DNA of 64,000 bases from Clostridia bacterium (GTDB taxonomy: Bacteria > Bacillota > Clostridia > Christensenellales > Pumilibacteraceae), in the NCBI GenBank assembly GCA_017623435.1, contig JAGAPD010000008.1, positions 1 to 64,000 on the forward strand. The letters run 5' to 3'. Of this stretch, positions 5,156-9,518 are shown in pieces. The position numbers and the translations under genes are program-made. The notes under the pieces were generated by a model, which was given only the letters and a program-made list of their open reading frames with translations, was not told the origin of the DNA and searched no databases. Position 1 is the first letter of the stretch; each line of letters begins with the position of its first letter.

Positions 5156-5729
5156 ATGTGCTCTCTCACGACGCTTCGTTGCCTTTTACCACCGAAGGTG
5201 GTTTCGTAGGCACGGAATATGTTTTACAACTTTACGACCGTACCAACAGGTTTGACCACGCGGTATGGTCTTATTTAAAGCCTCCCTCCGAGAGGGAGGG
5301 GGACCGCGTTAGCGGTGGAAGGAGCCTACGACGACAAAATATGCTTCCGTAAAAAATATACGTCCTCACGGTAAGCGGGCGATTCGTGAATCGCCCCTAC
5401 GATTTACTTTAAGGTGTGGGTATAGTAGCCTCCATCTGTCGAGGGAGGTGGCACGCGTAAGCGTGACGGAGGGAGAGCAGCCAAAGGCTGTTTCGTAGGC
5501 TTGGAATCGGGTGTGCGGGTTTATGACCTATACTAACCTATTTGACCGAGCGGTGTGGTCGTATTACTAATCAAGCTTTGCTTGTAGGCGTGGAATAAGG
5601 TGTACGGCTCGTTGACCTACGCCAACAGGTTTGACCGAGTGGTGTGGTCGTATTACTAATCAAGCTTTGCTTGTAGGCACGAAATAGACCGTTCAGTTTT
5701 ATCAAAAATAAGTTAGCGCAAACTAACCC
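5156..5729. repeat. Mosaic of dispersed repeats upstream of copA
   Basis: About 570 bases without a gene. Recognisable modules in order: a GTAGGCACGGAATA segment (5208) shared with repeat A; a CCTCCCTCCGAGAGGGAGG inverted repeat (about 5281-5299) with a flank that recurs at about 18491-18545; hairpin C (5375-5400); an A-type unit with CCTCCATCTGTCGAGGGAGG (about 5429-5515); and a near-perfect tandem pair of 89-base units at 5542-5630 and 5631-5680, each with ACTAATCAAGCTTTGCTTGTAGGC. Probably non-autonomous elements nested into each other. Confidence 0.65.
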
Positions 5730-5758
5730 TTGACAATTTAGCGTTTTAGTCGTATAAT
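5730..5758 (+). promoter_or_regulatory. copA promoter
   Basis: TTGACA (5730-5735), 17-base spacer, TATAAT (5753-5758). The start codon is only 22 bases after the -10 box, so the leader is about 15 nt and the operator below overlaps promoter and leader. Confidence 0.85.
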
Positions 5759-5776
5759 ATTACCAAGGTAATATTA
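5755..5776. promoter_or_regulatory. Palindromic operator of copA
   Basis: A perfect 10-bp inverted repeat, TAATATTACC-AA-GGTAATATTA, overlapping the -10 box and running up to the start codon. Its position fits a repressor that blocks RNA polymerase, as expected for a metal-responsive regulator such as CsoR or CopY, rather than a MerR-type activator, which would bind between -35 and -10. No regulator gene lies next to copA in this window. Confidence 0.7.
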
Positions 5777-5779
5777 ACT

Positions 5780-8227
5780 ATGAAAAAATTCGACGTAAAA
5801 GGTATGAGTTGCGCGGCGTGTTCAGCGCGCGTGGAAAAAGCGGTCTCCGAGGTGGAGGGCGTTGATTTTTGCGCGGTTAACCTTTTGACTAATTCAATGA
5901 CGGTTGACGGAAACGCTAATGAAAGCGATATCATTCACGCCGTAGAAAAGGCAGGTTATTTCGCTAATTTAGCAGGCGCGAAAAAGCAAGCCGCAGAAAA
6001 GGAAACGGAGCAGAGTGAAACGAGAATTTTACTAAAAAGGCATTTCGTTTCGCTTGGCTTTTTGCTTGCGCTTATGTACGTATCTATGGGGTACGTTATG
6101 TGGGGTTTTCCTTTTTTCGCGTTCTTTGACGCTAACCCCGTAGCGACAGCGCTTTTAGAAATGCTACTTGCTACTTGCGTAATCGTTATCAATAAAAAAT
6201 TCTTTATAAGCGGAACGAAAAGCCTTCTTCGTGGCGCGCCTAATATGGATACGCTCGTTGCCGTTGGCTCGGGCGCGGCGTATATCTACTCGCTCGTGGC
6301 GTTATTCATAATGACGGGTGAGACGGCGAGCGGAAATTTAGCGGGCGCAACGCACTATCTGCACGGGCTTTACTTCGAGTCTGCAGCAATGATTTTAGCA
6401 CTCATCACGGTGGGCAAAACGTTAGAGTCGTACGCCAAAGGAAAAACGACGAAAGCAATTACTTCGCTACTTAACCTCGCGCCCAAAACGGCGACGGTTA
6501 TTCGCGAAGGGAAAGAAACGACCGTGCCCGTTGGAGAAATTACGGTGGGTGAAATAATAGTAGTGCGCGCAGGCGGAGTGATGCCTTGTGACGGTGAAAT
6601 TATCGAGGGTAATTGCTCGGTGGACGAGTCGGCGCTTACGGGCGAAAGTATTCCCGTGGATAAAACGATAGGCGACAAGGTAAGCTCGGCGACCGTAAAC
6701 GCTTCGGGCTATATCAAAATTCGCGCAACGCGTGTGGGCGACGACACCACGCTTGCTGAAATAATCCGTATGGTTGAGGGCGCAAACGAAACGAAAGCGC
6801 CTATCGCGAAAGTGGCGGACAAGGTTTCGGGTGTGTTCGTGCCAGTCATTATGGCAATCGCGCTCGTCGTGACGGTGATTTGGCTGATTATAAACCAAGA
6901 TTTTGGATACGCGCTCGCTCGCGGAATATCCGTGCTCGTAATCAGTTGCCCGTGTGCGCTGGGCTTGGCTACGCCCGTAGCAATTATGGTGGGTAGTGGA
7001 GTAGGCGCGAAAAAAGGCGTGCTGTTTAAGAGTGCAACCGCGCTTGAGATGGCAGGCAGGGTAAAAATCGTTGCGCTCGATAAAACGGGTACGATTACCG
7101 CTGGCGTTCCCGTCGTGACCGACGTACTCCCGATAAATACCGAAAAGGAAAAATTCATCTCGCTTATCCGCGCGCTTGAAAGCAAAAGCGAGCATCCGCT
7201 CGGTAAAGCAGTAGCATCTCTTGGCGAGGGTGAATATCTGACGGTAGAGGATTTTACTACGCTTGCAGGTAACGGCGTTAGTGCAATAATTGATAATAAA
7301 AAGATAGTCGGCGGTAGCGTCAAGTTTATTGAGTCAATCACTCAAATTGACAAAACGACTATGGACGTATGTGCCCGTTTTGCTAACGATGGCAAAACTC
7401 CTATGTTATTTACTGCGGACGGAAAACTTATAGGCGCGGTTGCCGTAGCGGACAAAGTAAAGGACGACGCTATGGAATCGGTATTGACTTTAATTAGTCA
7501 CGGCGTACGAGTCGTAATGCTTACGGGCGACAACGAGCGCACGGCAAACGCCATAGCAAACAGCGTAGGTATTGAAGAGGTACGGGCAAACTTACTGCCG
7601 ACGGACAAGGAAAAAGTTGTTCGCGCCCTTATGCAAGAGGGTAAAACGGCAATGGTGGGCGACGGAATTAACGACGCGCCCGCGCTTGCGACTGCGCACC
7701 TTGGTATCGCGATAGGCGCAGGTACGGACGTTGCGGTTGAATCGGCTGACGTCGTTATCAGCGGTAAGGGGCTTTCGGGCGTTGCGACGGCTATTTTGCT
7801 TGGTGAAAAAACGCTTAAAAATATCCGTGAAAACTTATTCTGGGCGTTCTTTTATAATCTTTTGGCAATTCCCGTTGCGGCAGGCGCGCTTGCTTTTATG
7901 GGAATTACGCTCAGTCCTATGATAGGCGCGGCGGCAATGAGTTTGAGCAGTTTCTGCGTGGTAAGTAACGCGCTCAGACTTAACTTTTTCGGCAAAAAAA
8001 CGGTTAAAAAATCGGAGGTAAAAAATATGGAAATCACTCTTAAAATCGAAGGTATGATGTGTCCTCATTGTGAGGCTCGTGTCAAAAACACGCTTGAGGG
8101 AATTAGCGGCGTAAAGAGCGCCGTAGTTAGCCACAAGACGGGTACGGCGGTAGTAACTACTGATACCGTTACGCGCGAAACGCTCGTTTCCGCAGTTGAA
8201 AATCAAGGCTACAAAGTGGTAGGCTAA
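5780..8227 (+). CDS. copA: Copper-translocating P-type ATPase with N- and C-terminal HMA domains
   Basis: 815 residues, a P1B-type ATPase exporting Cu(I) across the cytoplasmic membrane. N-terminal heavy-metal-associated domain (1-70) with GMSCAAC (Cys11, Cys14); TM region; the channel motif CPC at 390-392 (SCPCALGLATP); phosphorylation site DKTGT with Asp434; hinge motif GDGINDAP with Asp628. Unlike standard CopA, a second HMA domain is appended after the last TM helices: EGMMCPHC with Cys761 and Cys764 (750-815). That domain is preceded in frame by its own ribosome site and ATG (8027). Promoter at 5730 and operator at 5755-5776 suggest metal-controlled expression. Confidence 0.95.
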   Translation: MKKFDVKGMSCAACSARVEKAVSEVEGVDFCAVNLLTNSMTVDGNANESDIIHAVEKAGYFANLAGAKKQAAEKETEQSETRILLKRHFVSLGFLLALMYVSMGYVMWGFPFFAFFDANPVATALLEMLLATCVIVINKKFFISGTKSLLRGAPNMDTLVAVGSGAAYIYSLVALFIMTGETASGNLAGATHYLHGLYFESAAMILALITVGKTLESYAKGKTTKAITSLLNLAPKTATVIREGKETTVPVGEITVGEIIVVRAGGVMPCDGEIIEGNCSVDESALTGESIPVDKTIGDKVSSATVNASGYIKIRATRVGDDTTLAEIIRMVEGANETKAPIAKVADKVSGVFVPVIMAIALVVTVIWLIINQDFGYALARGISVLVISCPCALGLATPVAIMVGSGVGAKKGVLFKSATALEMAGRVKIVALDKTGTITAGVPVVTDVLPINTEKEKFISLIRALESKSEHPLGKAVASLGEGEYLTVEDFTTLAGNGVSAIIDNKKIVGGSVKFIESITQIDKTTMDVCARFANDGKTPMLFTADGKLIGAVAVADKVKDDAMESVLTLISHGVRVVMLTGDNERTANAIANSVGIEEVRANLLPTDKEKVVRALMQEGKTAMVGDGINDAPALATAHLGIAIGAGTDVAVESADVVISGKGLSGVATAILLGEKTLKNIRENLFWAFFYNLLAIPVAAGALAFMGITLSPMIGAAAMSLSSFCVVSNALRLNFFGKKTVKKSEVKNMEITLKIEGMMCPHCEARVKNTLEGISGVKSAVVSHKTGTAVVTTDTVTRETLVSAVENQGYKVVG
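8027..8227 (+). CDS. Possible internally initiated CopZ-like copper chaperone
   Basis: Inside copA and in the same frame, GGAGG at 8014-8018 stands eight bases before ATG at 8027-8029. Initiation there would yield a free 66-residue HMA protein with the MMCPHC copper site, the size of a CopZ chaperone. The codons just upstream encode a charged linker (KKTVKKSEVKN), so the ribosome site lies in the least constrained part of the ATPase. Separate production of the small protein is an inference; the same bases also simply encode the C-terminal domain of the fusion. Confidence 0.45.
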   Translation: MEITLKIEGMMCPHCEARVKNTLEGISGVKSAVVSHKTGTAVVTTDTVTRETLVSAVENQGYKVVG

Positions 8228-8228
8228 T

Positions 8229-9518
8229 ATGATAACCGTCGTAGGAATAGGAATCCAAAGGGGTGATTTAGGCGCTAAGGGAAAGCGTGCGATTAAAGAG
8301 GCAACGCGCGTTTTTTCGCGTGTCAAAGTTTGGTACAAAAGTGAGATTTTGTCGCAAAAGCACGACGACGTATGCTCGTTTGAACAGCTTGACGAGCTTA
8401 TGGCTAATGAGATTATAAGCGCGGACGGGGAAAACGAGCGTGTCGTTTATTTGTCGGTAGGCGACGGATACACGGACACGGTGGTTGAAAAGCTTTGCAA
8501 AAAAACCGACGCCACTATTATCGCTGGCGTTAGCGAATATCGTGGTCGTACGCCCGGCTCGAAGGTCAATTTCGTTTCGGCTTACGACGTGAAGGAGGGT
8601 GACGTTTACGATACTTGCGTGCCTTTGGTCGTGTACGGAATCGACGACAAGTTTATTGCGGGTAACGTCAAAATTGCTCTTTCGGCTACTTACGGCGACG
8701 AGTGCGAAGTGACCTTTTCAACGGGCAAAAATAGCGTCAAGATTGCTCTATACGAGCTTGATAGACAAAAGTCGTATAACGGCTCTGCGCTCGTGCTTAC
8801 GGGAAGTGATAATTTTATCAACAAAAATCGCTACGGAATAAGTGACCTTATTGCCGTTATGACTCGTCTTACCGCGCCCGACGGATGTCCGTGGGATAAG
8901 GCGCAAACGCACGAAAGCATTCGCACGAATATGCTCGAAGAGGCGTACGAGGTGGTGGACGCTATCGACAAAAAAGATATTGATAATATGCGCGAGGAGC
9001 TTGGCGACGTGTTACTTCAGGTCGTTTTCCATTGCGATATGGCACAGCGCTCGGGCGAATTTACGCTTGCCGACGTCGTTAGTGAGCTTGTGCAAAAGCT
9101 CGTTTTCCGTCATACGCATATTTTTGGCGAAAACAAGGCGAGCGACGCCGAAAGCGCGCTTGGATTTTGGGAAGAGGCTAAGGCGAAAGAGAAGAAATAT
9201 CATTCTCTTTCCGAACAGCTTGACCGATTCCCCGACACCTTCCCGTCCACTTTGCGCACGCAAAAAGCGTACAAAAAGGCGGTCAAGGCAGGCGCACAGT
9301 TTGATACGAACAAAATCGCGGACAAGCTTAAAAGTATGATTGACGGCGGACTTAATCAGCAAAACGCAGGCGAGTTTTTGATGCTTGCCGATATTTTAGC
9401 GTCCACGACGGGCGCGGACTGTGAAACGGAGCTTAACAAGAGCGCGGCGCAGTTTATTGAAAAAATCAAGAGCGCGGACGAGAGAAAAACGCTCGATCGC
9501 ATAACGGACGAATTATGA
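8229..9518 (+). CDS. mazG: MazG-family pyrophosphohydrolase with N-terminal methylase-like domain (YabN type)
   Basis: 429 residues, two domains. Residues 1-195 resemble the tetrapyrrole (SAM-dependent) methylase fold found in front of MazG in Firmicutes YabN: VVGIGIQRGDLG at the start and LSVGDGYTD near 80. Residues 205-320 are a MazG NTP pyrophosphohydrolase: LTAPDGCPWDKAQTHESI, then EEAYEVVDAI and EELGDVLLQVVFH, the Glu/Asp-rich metal motifs. MazG removes non-canonical or excess NTPs. The methylase-like half lacks an obvious strong glycine loop and may be inactive. Starts one base after copA and overlaps dus by four bases. Confidence 0.92.
   Translation: MITVVGIGIQRGDLGAKGKRAIKEATRVFSRVKVWYKSEILSQKHDDVCSFEQLDELMANEIISADGENERVVYLSVGDGYTDTVVEKLCKKTDATIIAGVSEYRGRTPGSKVNFVSAYDVKEGDVYDTCVPLVVYGIDDKFIAGNVKIALSATYGDECEVTFSTGKNSVKIALYELDRQKSYNGSALVLTGSDNFINKNRYGISDLIAVMTRLTAPDGCPWDKAQTHESIRTNMLEEAYEVVDAIDKKDIDNMREELGDVLLQVVFHCDMAQRSGEFTLADVVSELVQKLVFRHTHIFGENKASDAESALGFWEEAKAKEKKYHSLSEQLDRFPDTFPSTLRTQKAYKKAVKAGAQFDTNKIADKLKSMIDGGLNQQNAGEFLMLADILASTTGADCETELNKSAAQFIEKIKSADERKTLDRITDEL

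Follow-up and report, generated by a model that had tools for sequence, protein, structure and literature searches.

In Escherichia coli, CopA(Z) is the released N-terminal HMA of CopA, and the CopA/CopA(Z) system was reportedly described by Meydan et al. and Drees et al. in 2017. In that system copA yields CopA(Z) through ribosomal frameshifting (PMC9548414). The copA gene studied here is similar in that a single gene would supply a copper pump as well as a free copper chaperone of one HMA. It differs in its route: the frameshift that releases the N-terminal HMA would be replaced by initiation at an in-frame internal start close to the 3' end, and the segment concerned is a distinct C-terminal HMA of the CxHC type. 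A second parallel is Cas11, which arises by internal in-frame initiation inside cas8/cas10 and is likewise a small C-terminal protein made beside the full-length one (PMC11899642). Cas11 belongs to a different pathway; the segment shared by both products here is a metallochaperone, joined to a membrane pump in the full-length protein.

Archaeoglobus fulgidus CopA is also a Cu P1B ATPase whose C-terminal end bears a metal-binding domain, and to our knowledge no internal start is known in its gene. The gene order here also matches that of separate copA-copZ pairs, found in four relatives belonging to family f1 (L054, L064, L067 and L069). Two of these (L054 and L064) carry a Shine-Dalgarno (SD) sequence before the copZ ATG directly after copA, as at the internal site. 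Unlike in these pairs, where copA has a stop codon, the frame here stays open, so that the fused form is also made. A search of titles and abstract beginnings in the open-licence literature found no earlier report of internal initiation in copA.

Anatomy of the copA locus

The window, a 64,000-nucleotide stretch of Clostridia DNA, contains copA together with the features listed in Table 1. The copA product matches TIGR01511 (copper-translocating P-type ATPase) at 564.3 bits, above the cut-off of 397, and TIGR01525 at 591 bits (cut-off 346). It misses the equivalog cut-off of PRK10671 (NF007952, 615.8 vs 1316 bits), and by this model it is no E. coli-type CopA ortholog. The protein is classed as a Cu(I)-type P1B ATPase with predicted transport activity. 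Its linker is bounded by the end of the TIGR01511 match at residue 734 and the beginning of the CopZ/HMA match at residue 752.

Table 1. Positions of the copA features and their neighbours in the window
Feature	Position	Strand	Basis
sigma-70-type promoter for copA, perfect TTGACA-17-TATAAT	5730..5758	+	promoter scan
inverted repeat TAATATTACC-2-GGTAATATTA, perfect 10-bp arms	5755..5776	+	sequence
copA, 815 aa, N-terminal HMA and C-terminal CopZ-like HMA in one frame	5780..8227	+	single ORF
N-terminal HMA, motif GMSCAAC	5789..5959	+	PF00403, 67.6 bits
A-rich linker from ATPase core to C-terminal HMA, holding the internal ribosome-binding site	7982..8026	+	model boundaries
internal SD, GGAGG	8014..8018	+	sequence; SD kept in 228/246 relatives with ATG
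internal ATG start codon	8027..8029	+	sequence; ATG in 246/263 fused relatives
predicted free CopZ-like chaperone, 66 aa, motif GMMCPHC	8027..8227 incl. stop	+	translation; HMA 60.7 bits
next gene, 429 aa	8229..9518	+	ORF coordinates

The C-terminal domain is a Pfam HMA (PF00403, 60.7 bits; cut-off 24.8), with CPHC as the CxxC metal site. For the 66-residue protein the best NCBIfam family is CopZ; because it scores below the curated CopZ cut-offs (CopZ_AFE_1862, 67.3 vs 85; CopZ_Bs, 54.7 vs 91), it is called CopZ-like. The CxHC motif is typical of known CopZ proteins. Among the relatives described below, CxHC occurs in 255 of 263 C-terminal motifs and in 0 of 115 N-terminal ones, which are mostly CAAC. 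By this motif the C-terminal HMA appears chaperone-like. The only other HMA ORF in the organism's own genome (L070, contig C40) has an ArsR-type regulator on one side and a Zn/Cd-type ATPase on the other, both assigned by eye; thus no separate copper-type free HMA or copper chaperone gene was found in that genome. Small HMA ORFs similar to L070 also occur near Zn/Cd-type ATPases in several relatives. In six relatives (L018, L019, L020, L023, L026 and L062), the linker ahead of the internal start has a high Cys content, with segments such as CSCNNC and ACPIACPI, possibly an extra metal site confined to the fused form.

Upstream, the inverted repeat covers the -10 box of copA together with the position where transcription probably starts, and it is a probable operator of a metal-responsive repressor. 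This arrangement would make the 5' leader of copA very short and its own SD weak. A simple consensus scan of 5550-8300, which is weak evidence, found no second promoter inside copA or for copZ. Several near-repeated segments (e.g. 'aggtttgaccg..gcggt.tggtc') and G+C-rich inverted segments occupy positions 5170-5700 of the intergenic region before copA and look like small dispersed repeats. On the other side, the downstream gene, which is probably MazG-like, has its ATG 1 nt past the copA stop (TAATATG, 8225-8231), an arrangement that suggests translational coupling to copA.

The internal start site and its conservation

The initial annotation had proposed a GGAGG and an ATG in frame before the C-terminal HMA, which would begin a 66-residue product. 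Both elements are present, the ATG follows GGAGG after a gap of 8 nt in the copA frame, and the coding span 8027-8224 specifies 66 residues. The proposed site (8014-8029) and product hold with their positions, while 8010, given as the start of the feature, falls inside the linker. Predicted pairing of the site with the anti-SD reaches -10.9 kcal/mol, whereas the gene's 22 other in-frame ATGs average -2.4 and reach -6.3 kcal/mol at best. By this comparison the site is more than chance. A search of the organism's own genome found no 16S gene, and the anti-SD was taken from four relatives, whose 16S 3' ends carry the canonical sequence (CACCTCCTTT / GGATCACCTCCTTT). Synonymous redraws of this copA by itself equal the strength of the site in 13% of draws (P 0.13, not significant); therefore a single gene cannot settle the matter, and the case rests on relatives.

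Relatives were sampled at increasing distance. A CopA query matched 74 of 74 genomes of the family, and 61 copA loci were read (L009-L069). For the wider set, a profile of the tail was run against 396 genomes of the order, 391 of the class and public species genomes (best 80 of 592). The order and class sets consist of the highest-scoring matches and, like the public-genome set, do not sample CopA genes at random; many of the genomes are metagenome-assembled. From 301 loci examined, 263 unique fused tails were kept; the 38 dropped were 15 duplicates, nine loci without a same-frame HMA after the ATPase and 14 in which the ATPase-end pattern failed. Two of these 14 (L061 and L068) are unfused, and the other 12 are fused, each with an ATG and an SD of at least 4 nt, so the exclusion did not favour the claim. 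Six of the 263 genes have two or three C-terminal HMAs; ATG and SD matches were counted at the first HMA, and presence of a start codon with an SD was counted at any of them.

Within the family, 50 of 61 copA loci carry the in-frame fusion to the C-terminal HMA, including that of a same-genus relative. The 11 unfused loci comprise the four copA/copZ pairs, one gene whose HMA is interrupted by a stop (L066) and six in which no HMA was seen beside the ATPase end. One fused family gene (L016) lacks an ATG at the usual place; 48 of 49 nearby ATGs in the family have an SD of at least 5 nt, as against 16 of 921 other in-frame ATGs of the same genes. Among all unique fused relatives, an ATG stands 6-16 codons upstream of the HMA metal motif GMxC in 246 of 263. 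An SD of at least 5 nt precedes 228 of these 246 ATGs, leaving 18 with a shorter one, while in the same genes the figures for control ATGs are 73 of 3663 in frame and 77 of 2063 off frame. The ATG lies 8 codons before GMxC in 191 of the 246, and the SD spacing has its mode at 9 nt from GGAG. Predicted RNA folding is also weaker at the internal ATGs, with a mean of -2.8 vs -11.7 kcal/mol at control ATGs, a difference that is significant after GC correction. At copA's own starts, where the best candidate ATG was taken, an SD of at least 5 nt occurs in 41 of 103, and the internal SD is generally the stronger of the two.

Fused relatives that lack the site, which the initial annotation had named as counter-evidence, are few. 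Counting any C-terminal HMA, a start codon with an SD of at least 5 nt is kept in 234 of 263 genes, and 247 have one with at least 4 nt. The 5-nt counts are 48 of 50 in the family, 93 of 112 in the rest of the order, 27 of 28 in the class and 66 of 73 in the public-genome scan (from the best 80 of 592). By hand-assigned genus labels, 66 of the 79 labelled genera contain at least one such gene. Two records named as Treponema (L241 and L253) and two named as Erysipelotrichaceae (L256 and L282) carry the same fusion and internal ATG with an SD of 5-6 nt, which suggests horizontal transfer or misnamed bins.

The initial annotation had also proposed to look for conservation at synonymous sites, and the signal is strong. 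In 400 synonymous redraws of 246 genes, an SD of at least 5 nt was retained in a mean of 93 and a maximum of 112 genes, compared with 228 observed. Taking one gene per genus, the redraws gave a mean of 27 and a maximum of 37 against 66 of 75 observed; the relatives are not independent, and this count and the tree correct for that only partly. Across relatives the SD is encoded as Lys-Glu, Gly-Gly, Glu-Glu, Gly-Glu and other pairs, and all three codon phases are used (158, 51 and 17 genes). Lys-Glu is spelled AAGGAG in 109 of 116 cases at the site vs 136 of 715 elsewhere (Fisher p about 1e-57), and Gly-Gly is spelled GGAGG in 17 of 17 vs 61 of 545. Protein-level selection on the linker alone does not account for this conservation of the SD. 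An in-frame SD and start codon, both conserved at the nucleotide level, are the sequence signature of internal in-frame translation initiation, and both are found in copA.

The site could instead be a relic of gene fusion. Adjacent copA and copZ genes would have lost the copA stop codon, the old copZ ribosome site and ATG would not yet have decayed, and the fusion protein alone would matter. The four f1 pairs, in which the two genes are still separate and in the same order, fit such an origin, as do internal stops in some of the wider matches and a linker that resembles a former intergenic region. The fusion is, however, too widespread for this account, as the count of genera indicates. CopA cores are often only 45-57% identical and linkers have diverged, both in sequence and in length (22 to 82 residues from the ATPase end to GMxC), yet the SD persists and shifts between codon phases, 14 times on a tree of 161 genes. 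Loss of the SD and start is sporadic on that tree, and we regard undecayed remains of a fusion as improbable.

A different role for the SD-like sequence would be a programmed pause that slows elongation, letting the membrane part fold before the C-terminal HMA, with no initiation involved. Such slowing of ribosomes has been proposed for SD-like sequences inside genes, and the site does lie between a membrane domain and a soluble one. A pause needs no start codon, yet ATG, GTG or TTG lies a constant distance ahead of GMxC, usually 8 codons, and the SD spacing is of the initiation type. Genes without the start codon also lack the SD (at least 5 nt in 1 of 14), and pausing as the function of the site is highly improbable.

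The A7 run at 7994-8000 raises two further alternatives. In the first, a -1 frameshift on this run would end at TAA 8005-8007 and give a pump without CopZ, and CopZ would follow by reinitiation at 8027. Both other frames do stop soon after the run, at TAA 8005-8007 and TAA 8019-8021, although in A-rich sequence early stops in a shifted frame are to be expected. A conserved slippery site with a shifted-frame stop, of the kind in E. coli CopA(Z), was not found: with slippery sites scored as linker A-runs only, a run of at least 6 A occurs in just 109 of 246 relatives, while the SD and ATG are near-universal. Frameshifting was rejected as the main route, since the A-runs are not conserved and ribosomes reach the C-terminal HMA without leaving the zero frame; we give it very little credence.

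In the second, a homopolymer mistake in assembly or sequencing would have artificially fused two genes in a metagenome-derived genome. A one-base change in the length of A7 could hide a copA-SD-copZ operon, given the stop of the other frame at 8005-8007. The fusion is nevertheless open at the 50 family loci and at all 263 unique loci, some of them from named cultured strains; records of Hornefia butyriciproducens, Schaedlerella arabinosiphila and Butyrivibrio sp. FCS014 are in the set. An artefact was rejected because relatives have the same open fusion, and its probability is close to nil.

Absence and ancestry of the site

Start codon and SD are coupled in their absence as in their presence. 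An ATG in range is missing from 17 genes. Three of these carry GTG (two) or TTG (one) exactly 8 codons before GMxC, each with an SD of 7-8 nt. In the other 14, the first C-terminal HMA is not accompanied by any start codon, and the only one of these genes that retains an SD of at least 5 nt (L127) has two C-terminal HMAs. No start codon preceded by an SD of 4 nt or more is present in 16 of the 263 fused relatives, and about half of the absences fall in one family (f11). On the tree, built with FastTree from the 161 cores and returned with a long-branch warning, a start with an SD of at least 5 nt is absent in nine of the 161 genes through nine changes. This scatter indicates sporadic losses at the tips, and the internal start is therefore probably ancestral.

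Among losers with at least 280 nt of downstream sequence, a separate copZ lies just downstream in 3 of 11, vs 1 of 226 keepers. All three belong to genus g69 and therefore represent at most one event. In these genes (L129, L145 and L195), a fused copA without an internal start is followed within 40-50 nt by a small HMA ORF with the motif GMRCGGC, possibly a new gene in place of the lost start. Other small HMA ORFs are frequent in losers, in a survey of 12 losers and 12 keepers that did not separate metal types.

Two predicted products of one gene

Taken together with its relatives, copA is very probably a two-product gene that encodes a pump with a tethered CopZ and, by internal initiation, a free CopZ of 66 residues. 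The fused and free chaperone that the initial annotation envisaged from one gene is thus supported by conservation of the site. Ribosomes starting at 5780 would produce the pump, a P1B ATPase that exports Cu(I) and carries a C-terminally tethered CopZ domain. Other ribosomes on the same mRNA would bind GGAGG at 8014 and start at AUG 8027, releasing the small product. Initiation at the internal site would be independent in the cell, and free CopZ would perhaps outnumber the fused pump. The conserved start site points to a soluble CopZ-like protein, which may act as a copper chaperone, picking up cytosolic Cu(I) and passing it to the pump, while the tethered copy would serve as a local metal-binding domain. 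The cell would presumably need both products.

Beyond this locus, it is likely that copA is a standard two-product gene across Clostridia, with the internal start setting the ratio of free chaperone to pump and with a CopZ that annotation pipelines miss. Together with the E. coli frameshift, the economy of obtaining pump and chaperone from one gene would then have evolved at least twice by different translational routes. The approach also suggests a cheap genome-wide screen for conserved internal starts ahead of C-terminal domains. If the reading is true, the gene annotation of many gut Clostridia omits a copper chaperone that these bacteria make. The chaperone-to-pump ratio would be set by an internal ribosome site and not by a separate gene or a frameshift, and the outcome known from E. 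coli CopA(Z) would be reached here by a second route, for which the comparative record is deep.
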